Notes under the pieces: model-generated
What the model was told of the DNA's origin: nothing
The model's database searches: none
The model's input: only the letters and a program-made list of their open reading frames with translations
Part shown: positions 3,214 to 64,000 of the stretch, piece by piece
How positions within the stretch are numbered: position 1 is the first letter of the stretch
Layout of the letters: every line of letters begins with the position of its first letter
NCBI RefSeq assembly: GCF_000019905.1
Contig: NC_010556.1
Location: 2,258,001 to 2,322,000, forward strand
DNA length: 64,000 nt
Direction of reading: 5' to 3'
Source: Exiguobacterium artemiae 255-15
GTDB lineage: Bacteria > Bacillota > Bacilli > Exiguobacteriales > Exiguobacteriaceae
Translations under genes and position numbers: made by a program

Positions 3214-3411
3214 TTAGTAGTAAGACTTCAAGTATTCCCCCTGATTCTGCCGGACTTTTTGAGTCCGGCCCTTTTTTTGTTTCTTCTTACTTTTCAACGC
3301 AAAAAGGACCGATTCGGTCTGCTCGCTTTCCGCTGACAAGTCATCCTGCCGCTTCAGATGCAGTGCATCTTCCAGGGTCAGATCGGCTTGTTTTCCGCAG
3401 GAGTCGAGCAT
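3214..3411 (-). CDS. doubtful small ORF, possible 65-residue basic protein
   Basis: An open frame of 65 codons from ATG at 3409-3411, with AGGTGAGG just upstream. The predicted product starts MLDSCGKQADLTLEDALHL and ends in a Lys/Arg/Gln-rich tail (KSKKKQKKGRTQKV). I recognise no family. The frame is in phase with the nrdF stop codon at 3481 and overlaps a plus-strand terminator hairpin at 3249-3278, which argues against it being a conserved gene. It could equally be intergenic sequence. Kept only because the frame is open and has a possible ribosome site. Confidence 0.25.
   Translation of the reverse strand: MLDSCGKQADLTLEDALHLKRQDDLSAESEQTESVLFALKSKKKQKKGRTQKVRQNQGEYLKSYY
3249..3278 (+). 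terminator. orphan plus-strand intrinsic terminator
   Basis: GCCGGAC (3249-3255) pairs with GTCCGGC (3263-3269) and is followed by CCTTTTTTTG. It is a textbook terminator for plus-strand transcription, yet no plus-strand gene ends here: both neighbours (yugI and nrdF) are on the minus strand. It may end a small RNA whose last unpaired segment is the C-rich TATTCCCCCTG at about 3234-3244. Confidence 0.6.
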
Positions 3412-3416
3412 GACCT
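3316..3416. other. nrdF-yugI intergenic stem structure
   Basis: This gap is about 375 bases apart from the doubtful ORF. It contains a long closing stem (GGTC-TGCTCG at 3316-3325 with CGAGCA-T-GACC at 3405-3415), an internal perfect hairpin AGATGCA/TGCATCT near 3356-3370, and an ACAAG/CTTGT pair. The 3' side reads TTTTCCGCAGGAGTCGAG, resembling the 3' side of the repeated element at 17.3 and 63.4 kb. Relationship to that family is tentative. Confidence 0.35.
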
Positions 3417-3480
3417 CACCTGTCCTAGCGTAAAGGAAATTGCATGGTGAAGCAATCAAAATTTCTGTCCGTTTACAGAC

Positions 3481-15102: not shown

Positions 15103-15455
15103 ATTCAAATCCCCCTTTAGTGATAGGTATAAGTATGAAGCGTTTGATCTGATTTTCCAACTGATAGCCTTCGAGACGAATGAAACCGCTCTCAAAAAAG
15201 ACGTTCTTTAATTTGTCGATTTGGAACGTTTCAAACAATTGTTGCCCGTTTCACAATATGATAGGATTAAACAGGTGAAAAGGACAGGCACTTCTATTTA
15301 ACGGTCATTTGGCAACGACAGAAATGTCTACGTTTTCATTCAAAGGGAGAGTCCGCAAGCGACCCGTTAAGAGAGATGCGTTTATGGGTATCTATAGATA
15401 GCAAAGAAATGACGTCGCTGCGGCGAAAAAACTTACTGAAAAGAGGGTAATGCAC
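15103..15455. other. divergent pepA/ptsI control region, 353 bp
   Basis: Contains the pepA promoter and, for ptsI, a possible promoter at 15239-15267 on the plus strand (TTGTTG, 17 nt, TAGGAT). That implies a ptsI leader near 190 nt, which includes AAGGGAGAGTCCGCAAGCGACCC and several short stems. There is no ptsH gene and no clear terminator, so I can assign no known riboswitch. Confidence 0.5.
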
Positions 15456-17180
15456 ATGGCACAGCACATCAAAGGAATTGGCGCTTCTGCAGGGATTGCG
15501 ATTGCAAAGGCATTCGTAATGGAAACACCTGTCTTTGACATTCCGACGCATAAAATCGAGGACTCGGCAGCAGAAAAGGAACGTTTCCAAGCCGCCATCG
15601 TTAAGTCGAAGGGTGAACTTGAAATCATCCGCGAAAACACATTAAAAGAACTCGGTGCAGACAAAGCGGAAATCTTCTCAGCTCACTTGTTGATCCTGGA
15701 AGACCCGGAAATCGTCAGCCAAGTCAACGCAAAAATTGACGATGAAAAAACCAATGCAGCACAAGCACTTGATGAAGTGTCACAGATGATGGTCATGATT
15801 TTTGAATCGATGGATAACGAATACATGCGCGAGCGTGCAGCCGATGTCCGTGACGTTACAAAACGGACAATGGCCCACTTGCTCGGTATCACATTCGTTA
15901 CACCGGCTCAAATCAATGAAGAGGTCATCATCATTGCCGAAGATTTAACACCTTCAGATACAGCACAACTCAACCGGAAGTATGCAAAAGGATTTGCTAC
16001 GAACATCGGTGGACGGACTTCGCACTCGGCAATCATGTCCCGTTCTCTTGAAATCCCGGCTGTCGTCGGAACAAAAGTCGTCTTGACGGAAGTCAAACAC
16101 GGTGATTTCTTGATCCTTGACGGAACAGAGGGTGACGTCATCGTCAATCCTTCAAGCGAACAAATCGCAGAATACGAAGAAAAACGTTCAGCGTACATCG
16201 CGCAAAAAGAAGAGTGGAAAAAACTCAAAAACGAAAAAACAGTCACTGCTGACGGACATCATGTCGAGCTTGCAGCAAACATCGGAACACCAAACGATGT
16301 TAAAGGTGTCCTTGAGAACGGCGCGGAAGCAGTCGGACTCTACCGGACAGAGTTCCTTTACATGGATGCGGAAACGTTCCCGACGGAAGACGAGCAGTTC
16401 ACAGCATACAAAACGGTTCTCGAATCGATGGGCGATAAAAAAGTCGTCATCCGGACGCTCGATATCGGTGGCGACAAGGAATTGTCTTATCTCGATCTCC
16501 CGCATGAGATGAACCCGTTCCTCGGATACCGCGCGATTCGTCTTTGCCTCGATCAAACGGATCTCTTCCGGACGCAACTCCGTGCCCTTCTCCGGGCGAG
16601 CGCGTATGGAAAACTTGCTGTCATGTTCCCAATGATCGCGACACTCGAAGAATTCCGTGCAGCAAAAGCACTTCTTCTCGAAGAAAAAGCAAACCTTCAA
16701 GCAGAAGGTGTGACAGTTTCAGAAGACGTTGAAGTCGGTATGATGGTCGAGATTCCTTCAACAGCTGTCATGGCGAAACAATTCGCAAAAGAAGTCGACT
16801 TCTTCTCAGTCGGAACAAACGACTTGATTCAATACACGATGGCGGCTGACCGGATGAATGAGAAAGTTTCATACCTCTATCAACCGTTTAACCCGGCTAT
16901 CTTGAACCTTTTGAACAACGTCATCACAGAAGCACACAAAGCAGGCAAATGGGTCGGCATGTGTGGTGAGATGGCAGGAGAAGAACTCGCACTTCCAATC
17001 CTTCTCGGACTCGGACTCGACGAATTCTCAATGTCTGCTTCTTCAGTCCTTCGCGCACGTAGCTTGATGACTCGCTTGAACAAAGCAGAGTGTGAAGCAA
17101 TCGTCGAACAAGTACTCGATATGGACACAGCGGAAGATGTCGTTAACTTCCTCAGCACAACGTTCGATATCAAAAAATAA
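15456..17180 (+). CDS. ptsI: phosphoenolpyruvate-protein phosphotransferase (PTS Enzyme I)
   Basis: Transfers phosphate from PEP to HPr, the first step of all PTS sugar uptake; cytoplasmic. The 574 residues show the N-terminal domain with the phosphorylated histidine in [13 protein letters not shown], and the C-terminal PEP barrel with [15 protein letters not shown] and the cysteine-bearing [11 protein letters not shown] 15456 is used because AGAGGG lies 8 nt upstream; ATG 15450 would leave only 2 nt. Unlike most Bacilli, no ptsH precedes it. Codon choice is strongly biased, consistent with high expression. Confidence 0.97.
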
Positions 17181-17190
17181 GGTATTTCGG

Positions 17191-17219
17191 ACACGTCCCA
17201 TCTCGGGGCGTGTTTTTTT
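17191..17219 (+). terminator. ptsI terminator
   Basis: ACACGTCCC pairs with GGGGCGTGT followed by seven T, 10 bp after the ptsI stop. Confidence 0.9.
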
Positions 17220-17225
17220 GTCGTG

Positions 17226-17283: not shown

Positions 17284-17436
17284 GAAATCATCCCTCCCTG
17301 CACTCGCTTTCCTCAGGCGAGACACAAGCCAGTTTTCCTGCCCAGTGTGGGCAGAAAAGCGGGTCTTGTTTTTCTCTGACAGCGCAGTTTGCACGTGCGC
17401 TTTTTCCTGTAAGAGTCTCGTGCATCGAATGATTTC
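17284..17436 (+). ncRNA. structured repeat element, copy A (candidate RNA)
   Basis: Closing stem GAAATCAT (17284-17291) with ATGATTTC (17429-17436). Inside: CTCGC/GCGAG hairpin (17303-17307 with 17317-17321), ACAAG/CTTGT (17324-17328 with 17365-17369), an apical CTGCCC/GGGCAG hairpin, and AGCGCA/TGCGCT (17381-17386 with 17396-17401) followed by TTTTTCC. It shares the cores GAGACACAAGCC, CGGGTCTTG and CTGACAGCGCA with copy B at 63.4 kb (minus) and more distantly with copy C at 63.2 kb. It has its own promoter, no ORF, and is not a known RNA class to me. This element accounts for most of the 336-bp ptsI-MFS gap. Confidence 0.65.
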
Positions 17437-17443
17437 AAACAAC

Positions 17444-17484
17444 AAAAAAAGGAAAGCGGATTCGACATCCCCTTTCCTTTTTTG
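17444..17484. terminator. bidirectional terminator upstream of 17.5 kb
   Basis: AAAAAAAGGAAAG pairs with CTTTCCTTTTTTG. It terminates the MFS gene on the minus strand and could end the copy A transcript on the plus strand. Confidence 0.85.
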
Positions 17485-17516
17485 TTGATGCTTAACTAAA
17501 CAGATTTACCTACATG

Positions 17517-19028
17517 TTATGCTTGCTTTGTTTTCGGTCGTTCACCTTGTCCTTCTTTTAACGTCGGGCGTTCATTGCCCATCAGGCAGACAAAGACGAC
17601 ACCGAGTACGGCTGGAATCAATGCCCACAGATAGACCGACGAAATTGATTCGGCACGTGACGATTTGATCGCATTCGCTACTTCCGGCGGCATTTTCGCA
17701 AGGGCTGAAGCCGTCGGGAATTGTCCGCCATCCGGTGCGTTTCCACCCGGCAACTGTTCACTGATCGTCGATGAGAAGGTCCGCGATTGGACGATGCCAA
17801 GGACGGTAACACCGAGCGTCATGCCGATCGTTCGGAACGTCGACCCCATTGATGTGGCCGCACCCCGTCGTTGCATCTCAATCCCGTTGATACTTGCCAG
17901 GTTGAGTAACGAGAAGCTGAAGCCGACACCAAATCCTAAAATGATCATATAGATTGTGATGGCGGTACGCGATGTTTCAAGCGACATCGTACTTAAGAGA
18001 TACACTCCTAACAAGAAGAAGACCGCTGAGACAAGCATGACATTCCGGAATCCGTATTTATTCGGTAATCGTCCGCCGAGCTGGGCGGAGACAACGGATG
18101 CAATCAGCATCGGCATCAAGATCAGACCCGAGTTGGTCGCACTGCCCCCGAAGACACCTTGGACAAAAATCGGAATGAAGACACTGGCAGAGATGAAGAC
18201 AAAACCGTAAAAGAAGGCTACGCCTTGTGTCGCCGCAAACAGTTGCCGTCTAAATAAACTGAACGTGATGACAGGGTCCGCTGCCCGGCGTTCGATGAAC
18301 CCGAAGACGATGAAGGCAACAAGCGCCCCGCCAAATAAACCGAGAATTTGCGGTGAGTTCCACGCATAGTCTTTTCCGCCCATCTCAAGGGCCAGCAAGA
18401 ACAAAACAAGTCCTGCCACTAACGTCACAGCACCGGCATAATCGATTTTTTGTGTCCGGTGAATCGGTGACTCCTTGTAAAACAGAGAAACAAGGGCAAG
18501 CGCCAATAATCCGAGGGGAATATTGATGTAAAAGACCCAACGCCAGTTGATGGCATCTGTTAAGACGGCACCCAGCAACGGACCAAAAATACTTGAAATT
18601 CCGAAGACGGCCCCGAACAAACCACTGACTTTCCCACGTTTTTCAGGCGGGAAAATATCAAAGATGATGGTAAAGGCAATCGGCATTAACGCTCCGCCAC
18701 CCAAACCTTGAATCGCACGATACACGGAAAGTTCAACAATCGAGTCTGCCATTCCACACAGGATACTCCCTGTGATGAACAGCAACATGCCGAATAAGAA
18801 GAATCGCTTCCGCCCGTACATATCACTTAACTTACCAAAGATCGGCATCCCCGCTACAGTCGCAATCATGTAAGCCGATGTGACCCACGCATATTGGTCG
18901 AAGCCGTTTAATTCGCTGACAATCGTCGGCATCGCTGTCGCAACAATCGTATTATCCATTGCTGCCACTAAAATCCCGATCAGTAATCCTAACACGACAT
19001 AACGTGTTTTTGTCGAAGTCGTAGCCAT
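17517..19028 (-). CDS. MFS drug:H+ antiporter, DHA2 (14-TM, EmrB/QacA type)
   Basis: A 503-residue multidrug-type exporter. Motif A is GKLSDMYGRKRFFLFG after TM2, and motif C-like GAVFGISSIFGPLLGAVLTD lies in TM5. Asp and Arg in AAMDNTIV and YRAIQGLGGG fit DHA2 proteins. About 14 hydrophobic segments are seen, with a large loop before the last one (about residues 425-470). The ATG follows AAAGAGGTGAGTCG. It stands alone, convergent with element A. Substrate unknown. Confidence 0.9.
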   Translation of the reverse strand: MATTSTKTRYVVLGLLIGILVAAMDNTIVATAMPTIVSELNGFDQYAWVTSAYMIATVAGMPIFGKLSDMYGRKRFFLFGMLLFITGSILCGMADSIVELSVYRAIQGLGGGALMPIAFTIIFDIFPPEKRGKVSGLFGAVFGISSIFGPLLGAVLTDAINWRWVFYINIPLGLLALALVSLFYKESPIHRTQKIDYAGAVTLVAGLVLFLLALEMGGKDYAWNSPQILGLFGGALVAFIVFGFIERRAADPVITFSLFRRQLFAATQGVAFFYGFVFISASVFIPIFVQGVFGGSATNSGLILMPMLIASVVSAQLGGRLPNKYGFRNVMLVSAVFFLLGVYLLSTMSLETSRTAITIYMIILGFGVGFSFSLLNLASINGIEMQRRGAATSMGSTFRTIGMTLGVTVLGIVQSRTFSSTISEQLPGGNAPDGGQFPTASALAKMPPEVANAIKSSRAESISSVYLWALIPAVLGVVFVCLMGNERPTLKEGQGERPKTKQA

Positions 19029-29486: not shown

Positions 29487-29515
29487 TAAGTTGTATTAAA
29501 AAAAATTAAATCGTT

Positions 29516-29652
29516 CCATCTTCAGGGCAGGGTGAAATTCCCGACCGGCGGTAAACAGGCGATTCGCCTGAAGCCCGCGAGCGAATAGGGCGCTATTTGC
29601 TGATTCTGTGTAACTCAGGAGCCGACAGTATAGTCTGGATGGGAGAAGATGG
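29516..29652 (+). ncRNA. FMN riboswitch (RFN element)
   Basis: Closing stem CCATCTTC (29516-29523) pairs with GAAGATGG (29645-29652). Conserved blocks GGGCAGGGTGAAATTCCCG, GACCGGCGGTA, AAGCCCGCGAGC and GCCGACAGTATAGTC are all present. It senses FMN and controls the riboflavin transporter downstream. Confidence 0.97.
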
Positions 29653-29716
29653 CGGCATGTTTCTTTCTTGAACCGATTTTGCAAAAATCGGTCAGGCTTA
29701 GTTTACTGCGGACTTC

Positions 29717-35354: not shown

Positions 35355-36938
35355 ATGTTTAAAAATTATACCATGAACCAGCTGGTTCTACCTTTAGATT
35401 TAGAAATTCGTCTTCAAGAAAACGATATCGCATTCGCCGTTCATCATCTTGTCGAGTCCATTCCCGACGATGCCTTTGAACCTTTTACTCGAACGACAGG
35501 CTGCCCCGCCTATCATCCACGCATGATGATGAAGATCATTTTATGCGCCTATACGCAATCGGTCTTCTCTGGTCGGAAGATCGAAGGACTCCTTCAAGAC
35601 AGCCTGCGTATGATGTGGCTCGCTCAAGGGAATGAACCGAGCTATCGTACTATCAATCGCTTTCGAGTGCACCCGGCAGTCACACCTATCCTTAAGCAGG
35701 CGTTCGTCACCTTCCGTTGCCATCTCGTCGAGATGGGAGAAATTAAGGAAGAAGCGATCTTCATTGATGGTACGAAACTAGAAGCGAATGCGAATCGATA
35801 TACGTTCGTCTGGCGAAAATCCGTCGAGCGATATAGTGCGTCGCTCGTTGAAAAGTCTAATCTTCTCTATGAAGAACTCGTCGCACAAGAAATCTTACCG
35901 GAGATTGAACGAGAAAGTCCAGACGAACTGACCCTTCCTGAACTCGAGCACATCGGTGATGTTTTGGAGGGACGAATCGCTTCTATCAATCAAGAAATCG
36001 AGGCAAGTTCAGATACGCAGGAGAGAAAACGGCTTCGTTCCGAACGAAAGCAACCCCATCTTTTCCGAAAAAAGTTCGCTGAGTTCGTGGAAAGAAAAAG
36101 GAAGTATGCCGTCCAAAAGGAAACGTTCGATGGACGGAACAGCTATTCGAAAACGGATACGGATGCGACGTTTATGCGGATGAAGGAAGATCATATGCAA
36201 AATGGACAACTCAAGCCGGGGTACAACGTGCAGATTGCGACCGAAGGTCAATATACCCTCGCTTATGATGTCTATCCCAATCCGACCGATGCCCGCACGT
36301 TAATCCCATTTTTAGATGAGGTTTCCTCGTATCTTACTTTACCGAAACATATCGTTGCGGACGCCGGCTATGGAAGCCAAGAAAATTATCAGGAGATTCT
36401 GATGCGCCGAGGGCGCATTCCGCTCGTTCCCTATACGATGTTTCAAAAAGAGAAGACGCGAAAATGGCGTGATGATCCTTTTAATCTCGTCAACTGGTCC
36501 TACGATGAAACGACCGATCACTTTGTATGCCCGAACGGGCAGAACGTGACGTTCCGTTACATGTCTAAGAGAACGGATCGATATGGTTTTACCCGCGATT
36601 TCAAGGTGTACGAAAGTGAGAGTTGTGATGACTGCCCGCTTCGATCCCTCTGTACCAAGGCAGAGAAGGGTCGTCATCGCCAAGTCCGAGTAAACGTTTC
36701 GTGGGAAGAGCAAAAGGAACAGGTAAAGGACCTGCTTTCAGATCAAAAAACCGGGAAAATCTACGCGAAACGTAAGATAGACGTAGAACCAGTTTTTGGG
36801 AATCTGAAGGCTAATTTGCGTTTCACTCGTTTTTCCGTAAGAGGAAAAGCAAAGGTGAAACGTGAGCTTGGCTTCATCCTTATGGCAGTAAATCTGAGAA
36901 AGTGGCTCACCCAAAGTATTGCCCGAGGGGCATTTTAA
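35355..36938 (+). CDS. IS1182-family transposase (DDE)
   Basis: A 527-residue, apparently intact transposase. The N-terminal DUF772 domain (about residues 15-110; HHLVESIPDDAFEPF, MMMKIILCAYTQSVFSGRKIEGL) is followed by the DDE nuclease fold (FIDGTKLEANANRYTF supplies the first Asp; HIVADAGYGSQENYQ the second; YAKRKIDVEPVFGNLK the Glu). CDDCPLRSLC is the zinc-like cysteine cluster of this family. GGAGGTG precedes the ATG. Codon use differs from neighbours (more ATA, CGA and AGA). Confidence 0.95.
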   Translation: MFKNYTMNQLVLPLDLEIRLQENDIAFAVHHLVESIPDDAFEPFTRTTGCPAYHPRMMMKIILCAYTQSVFSGRKIEGLLQDSLRMMWLAQGNEPSYRTINRFRVHPAVTPILKQAFVTFRCHLVEMGEIKEEAIFIDGTKLEANANRYTFVWRKSVERYSASLVEKSNLLYEELVAQEILPEIERESPDELTLPELEHIGDVLEGRIASINQEIEASSDTQERKRLRSERKQPHLFRKKFAEFVERKRKYAVQKETFDGRNSYSKTDTDATFMRMKEDHMQNGQLKPGYNVQIATEGQYTLAYDVYPNPTDARTLIPFLDEVSSYLTLPKHIVADAGYGSQENYQEILMRRGRIPLVPYTMFQKEKTRKWRDDPFNLVNWSYDETTDHFVCPNGQNVTFRYMSKRTDRYGFTRDFKVYESESCDDCPLRSLCTKAEKGRHRQVRVNVSWEEQKEQVKDLLSDQKTGKIYAKRKIDVEPVFGNLKANLRFTRFSVRGKAKVKRELGFILMAVNLRKWLTQSIARGAF

Positions 36939-51201: not shown

Positions 51202-51372
51202 AAAAAAAGTGCGCACGTTTTAGAGCAAACGCGCGCACTTTTTCAGTACACAAAACCATTTGCTCTCATCTTGCAGACAATCGTCTGCTGGAATTAGCAC
51301 CACTTCGGAATAAATTCCGCGGTTGCCGGGTTTCATCGGGCCAGTCCCTCCACCACTCTCGATAAGAGTTAT
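51202..51372 (-). ncRNA. SAM-I riboswitch (S-box) with terminator
   Basis: On the minus strand the aptamer has GGTGGAGGGACTGGCCCGATG, AAACCCGGCAACC, GTGCTAATTCC and GATGAGAG, all conserved S-box blocks (about 51260-51370). The terminator AAAAAGTGCGCGCGTTTG...CGTGCGCAC with seven U (51202-51243) stops metNPQ transcription when SAM is bound. Confidence 0.97.
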
Positions 51373-62501: not shown

Positions 62502-63137
62502 ATGAAATCGACAGAACAATTATGGGATCAACAAGCGACGGACTGGGCCGACCGGTCGGAGATGATGTGGACGACAGGCAGCCGGAAGACGATTATTCCG
62601 TTTTTAACATCGGTCATCGCGTCCGGCAAGTTACTCGATTTAGGATGCGGCGACGGCGCCGCCTGCCGGTTGCTCGCTGAGGCGTTTCAAGTGACGGGTC
62701 TTGATCTGTCGGAAGAGATGATCCGGATCGCCCGTGCCAAATCGCCGGCACTCGACTTCGTCGTCGGAACCGGTGAAGCATTGCCGTTTGCAGATGAGAC
62801 GTTTGACGTCGTCCTTGCCGTCAATTCACTCGAATGGTCGACGCAACCTGTCACGGTCCTGAACGAAATCAGCCGTGTCTCCCCGCTCGTCGTCATCAGT
62901 TTGCTTGGACCGACGGCAGCACCACGGGCATTGTCCTACCGTCGCCTGCACGGGGAAGAGGCACCGATGGGCAATACGATGATGCCGTGGGAACTCGTCC
63001 AACTGGCAGACGAACTCGGATGGACGTTGCTTGACGAAGCCGTCATTCAAAAGGAAGGTGCCGTCATGACCGGTCACCGGTTGCTCGATCAGGCCCATGC
63101 GTTTTCCTGTTTGTTTGCGTTTCGGACAAAGGGTTAA
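62502..63137 (+). CDS. class I SAM-dependent methyltransferase
   Basis: A 211-residue methyltransferase. The SAM loop is KLLDLGCGDGAACRLLAEAF (about residues 44-63), followed by GLDLSEEMIRIA and AVNSLEWSTQP for motif IV. AAGGGGGATTTCTT precedes the ATG. Divergent from fadNAE. No terminator precedes repeat copy C, which follows 21 bp after the stop and would be in its 3' UTR. Acceptor unknown. Confidence 0.87.
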   Translation: MKSTEQLWDQQATDWADRSEMMWTTGSRKTIIPFLTSVIASGKLLDLGCGDGAACRLLAEAFQVTGLDLSEEMIRIARAKSPALDFVVGTGEALPFADETFDVVLAVNSLEWSTQPVTVLNEISRVSPLVVISLLGPTAAPRALSYRRLHGEEAPMGNTMMPWELVQLADELGWTLLDEAVIQKEGAVMTGHRLLDQAHAFSCLFAFRTKG

Positions 63138-63157: not shown

Positions 63158-63285
63158 GACGTATGTCCACCCGCTTTTCTCGTGCGGGACGCAAGCCGCG
63201 CCTATCTAACGATGACCGGGTCTTGCCTGTCCCTGACGGAAGCAAGCTTTCTTTTCCCGCAGAAGTCGGATGGACACGTCTTTTT
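63158..63285 (+). ncRNA. structured repeat element, copy C (divergent)
   Basis: Closing stem GACG-TA-TGTCCA (63158-63169) with TGGACA-CGTC (63271-63280), followed by TTTTT. Inner hairpins: CCCGC/GCGGG, GCAAG/CTTGC (the A-T pair of copies A and B replaced by G-C), GAC/GTC, and GGAAG/CTTTC before TTTTCCC. Core CGGGTCTTG and CTGAC kept. Sequence of every helix differs from copy A while pairing is retained. Confidence 0.6.
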
Positions 63286-63341: not shown

Positions 63342-63479
63342 AAATCACTCGATTCATGCAACTCCTTCAGGAAAAAGCGCATTTTTTTGCGCTGTCAGAG
63401 ACAGACAAGACCCGACTTGCGAACAGCAAAGTTTGGCTTGTGTCTCGCCTGAGGAAAGGGCATGAATAACGAGTGATTT
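63342..63479 (-). ncRNA. structured repeat element, copy B
   Basis: Closing stem AAATCACTCG-ATTCATG with CATGAAT-AA-CGAGTGATTT (17 bp), followed by U-run. It shares CTTTCCTCAGGCGAGACAC, AAGCC, CGGGTCTTGT, CTCTGACAGCGCA and TGCGCTTTTTCCTG with copy A. The apical stem is different (ACTT-GC/GCAAGT). It lies beyond the proline dehydrogenase terminator, in the same direction as that gene. Copies B and C together occupy most of the 463-bp gap 63138-63600. Confidence 0.65.
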
Positions 63480-63600: not shown

Positions 63601-64000
63601 TTATCCTTTAACCATTCCTTTAAGGACAAACGCCACGTTTGCCGGACGTTCCGCTAAGCGGCGCATGAAGTAGCCGTACCAGTCACGACCGTAAGGGACG
63701 TAAACACGGACTTTATAGCCGAGCTTCACGAGTTCAAGCTGACGTTCGACGCGGATGCCGTACAGCATCTGGAATTCGAACTTGTCGTTGCCGATGCCGT
63801 TTTCTTTTGCATAACGGATGATCTGTTCAATCATCGCGTCGTCATGCGTTGCGACCGCAGCATAGTTACCGAGTGACAGTTGAAGTTTTACGAGTTTGAT
63901 GTAGTTGTGGTCCACATCTTCTTTTTCCGGGAAAGCAACCGTTGCCGGCTCTTTATAGGCCCCTTTAACGATTCGCAAATTCGTCTCGAATCGTCCGACA
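63601..64000 (-). CDS. proline dehydrogenase, C-terminal part
   Basis: Oxidises proline to pyrroline-5-carboxylate with FAD and respiratory quinone. About 133 codons are visible, the C-terminal part of the TIM barrel. LRIVKGAYKEPATVAFPEKEDV, FEFQMLYGIR and the motif VRVYVPYGRDWYGYFMRRLAERP are the PRODH signatures (YGRDWYGYFMRRL binds substrate). It resembles FadM/PutB, which follows fadN in Bacillus. The N-terminal part lies beyond base 64000. Confidence 0.95.
   Translation of the reverse strand, partial: VGRFETNLRIVKGAYKEPATVAFPEKEDVDHNYIKLVKLQLSLGNYAAVATHDDAMIEQIIRYAKENGIGNDKFEFQMLYGIRVERQLELVKLGYKVRVYVPYGRDWYGYFMRRLAERPANVAFVLKGMVKG

Follow-up and report, generated by a model that had tools for sequence, protein, structure and literature searches.

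Several families of short, structured, intergenic repeats have been described in bacteria. An example is bcr1 of the Bacillus cereus group, which the available portions of two reports (PMC3733652, PMC2267715) present as a dispersed, foldable, intergenic sequence of about 150 bp with mobile character. The family presented here resembles bcr1 in these respects. Unlike bcr1, it occurs in many genera of Bacilli and has arms that vary in sequence yet still pair, and by description the two are set apart. ERIC, RUP, NEMIS and EFAR, as far as the accessible accounts go, are other structured intergenic MITEs of similar character. Another candidate is Bhal-1 of B. halodurans, given in Table 3 of PMC2267715, the part of that report consulted, with a 74 bp model, 36 intergenic copies and a conserved structure. 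By that tabulated description Bhal-1 would match the present family in size, host group, copy number and structure, and may be an earlier sighting of it.

Two groups of mobile elements also offer comparisons. REPINs and the REPs dispersed by RAYT transposases are, like the present repeat, palindromic, non-autonomous and intergenic, but 10 of the 19 genomes of the genus studied here have no matching Y1 transposase. For IS1272, a member of the IS1182 family, insertion targeted to stem-loops has been reported (PMC5678879, in the portion available). Some IS1182-type elements contain the repeat in their left end, and palindromic targets are duplicated around some of these elements; most copies, however, have neither transposase nor IS1182 ends nor target duplication. 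A search of the open-access literature, in which core strings of the repeat also served as queries, returned no description of it.

The window analysed here is a stretch of 64,000 nucleotides from Exiguobacterium artemiae 255-15. It contains four copies, A to D, which are probably members of a structured, non-autonomous mobile repeat that has spread through Bacillales, at least partly by means of IS1182-type transposases. From three of them the original prediction had proposed an RNA family and had rejected a transposon; this choice between RNA and transposon is a false one.

Copies in the window and extent of the family

Two models of the family were built: R1, a covariance model from 17 copies, and R2, a broader model from 41 sequences, some of which come from genomes of the class sample searched below. 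The copies in the window, and the terminators beside copy A, are as follows.

3297..3431, + strand: copy D, absent from the original prediction; R2 match at 3316-3413, E 1e-11
17189..17221, + strand: terminator-like hairpin and T run, 5' of copy A, belonging to the upstream ptsI-like gene (15450-17180)
17284..17436, + strand as first given: copy A; R2 match at 17297-17425
17440..17486, no strand given: terminator-like hairpin adjoining copy A on its 3' side, common to the convergent transporter gene (17517-19028, - strand)
63158..63285, + strand: copy C; R2 match at 63164-63275
63342..63479, - strand: copy B; R2 match at 63352-63468

Copies A, B and C lie where they had been predicted and align to one core. 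The same core is found in copy D, whose paired arms read AAGGAC...GTCCT; a terminator-like hairpin precedes it at about 3250-3278, on its 5' side. Copies B and C are convergent: C lies just downstream of a methyltransferase-like ORF (62502-63137, + strand) and B downstream of a proline-dehydrogenase-like ORF (63601-63978, - strand).

As had been supposed, the family is undescribed in Rfam 15, where several searches found no family for the copies. At gathering thresholds the whole window matches only an FMN riboswitch (29514-29654, + strand) and a SAM riboswitch (51263-51368, - strand). Copy A alone, searched at E <= 10, has matches at chance level, the best being a microRNA model (E 0.011), and loci L089-L096 together with eight Bacillales loci have no match at E <= 0.1.

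Within its own genome, copy A finds 17 places by blastn (E <= 6.4e-8), a similarity that chance cannot explain. Copy C is missed by this search, and its membership is established by structure. R1 matches 31 places in the same genome at E <= 1e-5, 17 of which are its own seeds. A covariance-model search of the genus and its relatives, suggested along with the original prediction, extends the family much further. All 19 genomes of the genus contain matches to R1, with 12-134 per genome (E <= 0.01), and 14 of 19 genomes of the sister genus contain 1-5 each (E <= 1e-4). In the class sample, R2 matches 82 of 299 genomes and 26 of 118 genera (E <= 1e-5).

The distant matches in the class have the words CGCTTTCC, AGCC, GGGTCT and AGGAGTC in common, while their arms are long, paired and different. 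A pattern of core words matches at least 117 stretches in named genomes. The 80 loci among the pattern matches listed bear 35 genus names, namely Arthrobacter and 34 that we take to belong to Bacilli. The Arthrobacter beigongshangensis record, an actinobacterial one, holds a copy (L200), by transfer or contamination.

Copies can also be found on plasmids. A search with a Bacillus copy returned 15 plasmid records; copy A had no match among plasmids, and the phage records searched contained no copy. In four of the four plasmid records examined, from Bacillus subtilis (L264), Priestia megaterium (L265), Paenibacillus urinalis (L266) and Peribacillus frigoritolerans (L269), the same copy lies between gnd and a hypothetical gene, with zwf and a glucose-6-phosphate isomerase gene alongside. 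A Tn3 transposase is nearby in two of the four. This copy hitchhikes on a shared gene cassette. Local tandem amplification is seen in genome G007, where L304 has two and L305 three copies in the same orientation, spaced by about 250 and 370 bp.

Fold, arms and covariation

With a length of roughly 100-190 bp, the repeat forms a long, imperfect palindrome in which a conserved core is enclosed by arms that are free in sequence and pair with each other. On the strand first given, its conserved internal loops are CGCTTTCC / GGAGTC and AGCC / GGGTCT.

The predicted complementarity of the closing arms is borne out. Among 17 copies of the own genome, arms pair at -15.2 kcal/mol with their own partner versus -7.9 when swapped, and among 82 distinct Bacillales copies at -17.8 versus -7.8 kcal/mol. 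The arms had also been called unrelated in sequence, which is true of copy C relative to A and B, but A and B are related to each other. The arms of copy C pair only mutually (-13.3, versus -2.6 to -3.5 with arms of A or B). For the stretches cut for the arm-swap test, the 5' arm of A pairs with the 3' arm of B at -9.3 and with its own 3' arm at -8.5.

Covariation of the stems also holds up in a larger sample. Of 46 pairs predicted from A, B and C, 14 have changed on both sides in some copy. In an alignment of 41 rows, with a structure set by hand and with 500 shuffles and slid structures as controls, the true structure has 74 double-changed cells, compared with 21.6 in shuffles (none of the 500 as high) and 26 at most in slid structures. 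Paired cells amount to 91.4% versus 81.8 when shuffled, and the covariation score is 0.261 versus 0.102 when shuffled and at most 0.119 when slid. Further pair types show no excess in this alignment (24 versus 23.0 in shuffles). Covariation also appears at 5 of 15 pairs in an alignment of 72 rows, and inspection by eye reveals double changes in the outer arm of four copies from one genome of Bacillus infantis.

Compensatory changes can arise without selection, by quasi-palindrome correction. The pairing of the arms could accordingly be functionless, either coincidental or purely mutational through template switching. This is very improbable: over many genera the internal loops stay fixed while the adjoining stems vary, so that mutation bias alone is insufficient.

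Which strand folds is a separate matter. The original prediction gave a strand for each of its three copies, and in all of A to D the better fold is on the other strand, an advantage that the arms alone confer. For copy A the values are -62.7 kcal/mol on the opposite strand and -56.0 on the strand first given. When copies are folded together with 30 nt of flanking sequence, the opposite strand is better in 14 of 17 copies of the own genome and in 67 of 82 Bacillales copies, the reverse being true in 13 of the latter (mean difference 3.75 kcal/mol). The advantage comes from the arms, because the Bacillales core alone has no strand difference (38 versus 42). The conserved loops appear by eye to be purine-rich on the better-folding strand. 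G-U pairs are commoner on the strand first given in the Bacillales set, and the region upstream of that strand has slightly higher promoter-like scores (p 0.014). The functional strand is likely the opposite of the one first given.

Gene context and rearrangement

A conserved core with covarying stems and with purine-rich loops on the better-folding strand is what a genuine non-coding RNA would show, or a cis-acting mRNA structure of a leader or 3' UTR, that had been duplicated often and whose mobility was incidental. In Exiguobacterium, moreover, a terminator-like hairpin often follows the copy on the strand first given (9 of 16). Against this stand the number of copies per genome, given above, and the arrangement of copies relative to genes and promoters, which together make such an RNA unlikely.

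The copies are intergenic. A crude ORF caller placed 58 of 84 copies from named genomes, of which 25 lie between convergent genes and 4 between divergent genes. Between tandem genes the placed copies have no orientation bias (13 versus 16), which speaks against cis regulation oriented to the gene. A scan for promoters on both strands found no consistent signal on either. Terminator-like hairpins that point into the copy from within about 130 nt occur on the 5' side, as first given, of 16 of 82 copies and on the other side of 8 of 82, compared with 7 of 316 random windows.

Syntenic sites show that the element is rearranged in place. Site A was compared in 14 of the 19 genomes of the genus. The element is kept in place in three other genomes, and in two it is inverted where it stands, which also speaks against an RNA gene. 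One genome lacks the middle of the element, between two TTTCCT words; two have enlarged and rearranged regions; and the element is absent from five genomes of another clade. Among the sequences recovered for site B/C, one other genome has the same convergent pair, three have copy C followed by the gene and then by a different inverted copy, and one has copy C and the gene with no inverted copy and a GAAGAA direct repeat at the junction.

Association with IS1182-type elements

On two Peribacillus plasmids a copy lies between the left end and the transposase of an IS1182-family element. A palindrome of 23-24 nt is repeated outside both IS1182 ends on one of these plasmids, whereas on the other the palindromes outside the ends differ. 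The IS1182 elements seen here have palindromic targets, and the duplication takes in the whole palindrome (L270, L271, L292); pB likewise has a palindromic target duplicated around an IS1182-family element.

R1 finds 10 matches at 32 IS1182 loci, and R2 finds 13 at 41 loci; for 11 of the 13, the transposase or its remnant lies no more than 300 nt downstream and runs in the same direction. Of these 41 loci, 29 are from the class. The remaining 12 came from searches of the genus and of plasmids and had been picked in part because R1 matched there, and R2 was itself built with L270 and L278. The class loci, which were not so selected, have a codirectional element upstream in 5 of 29. The window itself encodes a 538-aa IS1182-family transposase (35367-36911, + strand), one of five near-full matches in the genome, with no element upstream.

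IS1182 transposases occur in 12 of the 19 genomes of the genus and, at E <= 1e-60, in 77 of 250 genomes from the class sample. The other 7 genomes of the genus have none at E <= 1e-5, yet hold 12-57 copies each. Beside nearly all solo copies the transposase (NF033551) is absent.

In 11 loci the element is found on the same strand and at the same place, after the left-end terminator and before the start of the transposase. It might on this ground be an integral regulatory module of IS1182, for instance an insulator or an antisense RNA against the transposase, with solo copies as remnants of the IS. Its presence in both deep branches of the transposase tree would suit this account, which is nonetheless rather improbable. 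On a tree of 36 of the 38 transposase sequences, the 10 with the element require at least five gains or losses (2 of 500 shuffles are as low), and the IS ends are missing from most solo copies. In the Peribacillus element L267, moreover, the terminator arm TTTG(T/C)CTACAGT(C)TTTTTT is seen by eye on both sides of the repeat, as if the repeat had inserted there, while its near relative L325 has, again by eye, the arm once and no element. The same flanking repeat of the terminator arm scores 15 in L193. Together with the tree, the doubled arm of L267 and the single arm of L325 suggest repeated entry into IS1182 left ends, not one old partnership.

Dispersal as a REP-like element, by a transposase of the Y1/RAYT or IS200 type, would agree with the palindromic form, intergenic location and high copy number of the repeat. 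It is very improbable and already largely refuted, PF01797 not being general in the genus: only 9 of 19 genomes have it, and it is missing from G015, the genome with the most copies (134).

The family has the features of a MITE in part. It is dispersed and high-copy, its core needs no conserved ORF, and its arms are inverted repeats, although their sequence is not conserved. A subset of copies in the own genome (L004, L007-L010, L012) shares GGCTGACTCAAAA ends on both sides with at most 2 mismatches. The original prediction would have yielded to a MITE if copies showed conserved ends and target duplications, and such duplications exist in a few copies only, for example L177 and L310. L177 is a miniature IS1182-like element: it has IS1182-like ends, which by eye agree with those of L267/L268 in 13 and 14 of 16 letters, a palindrome of 20-22 nt repeated outside both, and the repeat alone inside. 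L310 has an exact repeat of 18 nt inside a longer repeated palindrome.

Elsewhere such traces are scarce. Exact flanking repeats of at least 14 nt occur at 3 of 74 copies and 3 of 291 control places, which is no excess; with mismatches allowed, flanking repeats occur at 6 of 82 copies versus 2 of 323 swapped flanks. No target duplication stands out among 16 copies of the own genome. In 15 regions of the two richest genomes, an IS1182-like end (at most 3 mismatches) is found in 2. In Lentibacillus kapialis, a copy (L199) is enclosed by long inverted repeats that do not resemble IS1182 ends, and the 12 nt CTTTTTAATAGC is repeated outside them; the carrier of this copy is perhaps of another transposon family.

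Covariation does not rule out a transposable element. The step from compensatory change to an RNA and away from a transposon is not supported. The family is a dispersed, rearranging, partly IS1182-borne high-copy repeat: its copies are inverted, deleted and nested in place, have no orientation bias, travel on plasmids and in IS1182 elements and, in one case, form a MITE.

A mechanism for the mobile repeat can be proposed. One strand, as RNA or as single-stranded DNA, would fold into the shape, and the fold, rather than the sequence of the arms, would be recognised. Copies would be placed beside intrinsic terminators, among them the one that IS1182-family elements have in their left ends. IS1182-type transposases would move copies at least sometimes and may move most of them. 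The arms would be kept paired either by selection or because replication copies one arm from the other. A more ambitious and still doubtful proposal is that the family is a structure-guided mobile nucleic acid of Bacillales, as folded RNA or single-stranded DNA. Its internal loops would be recognised while its arms need only pair, and it would insert beside terminators and hitchhike in IS1182 left ends. Among structured elements of Bacilli that have yet to be described, it may then be one of the most numerous.

If the family is a mobile repeat of this kind, its description would name a repeat carried by 82 of 299 sampled Bacilli genomes and would tie it to transposons that read the shape of DNA. 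It would also show that covariation within a family of repeats does not prove an RNA gene. The arms would serve as a natural experiment to tell whether selection or template switching maintains the pairing.
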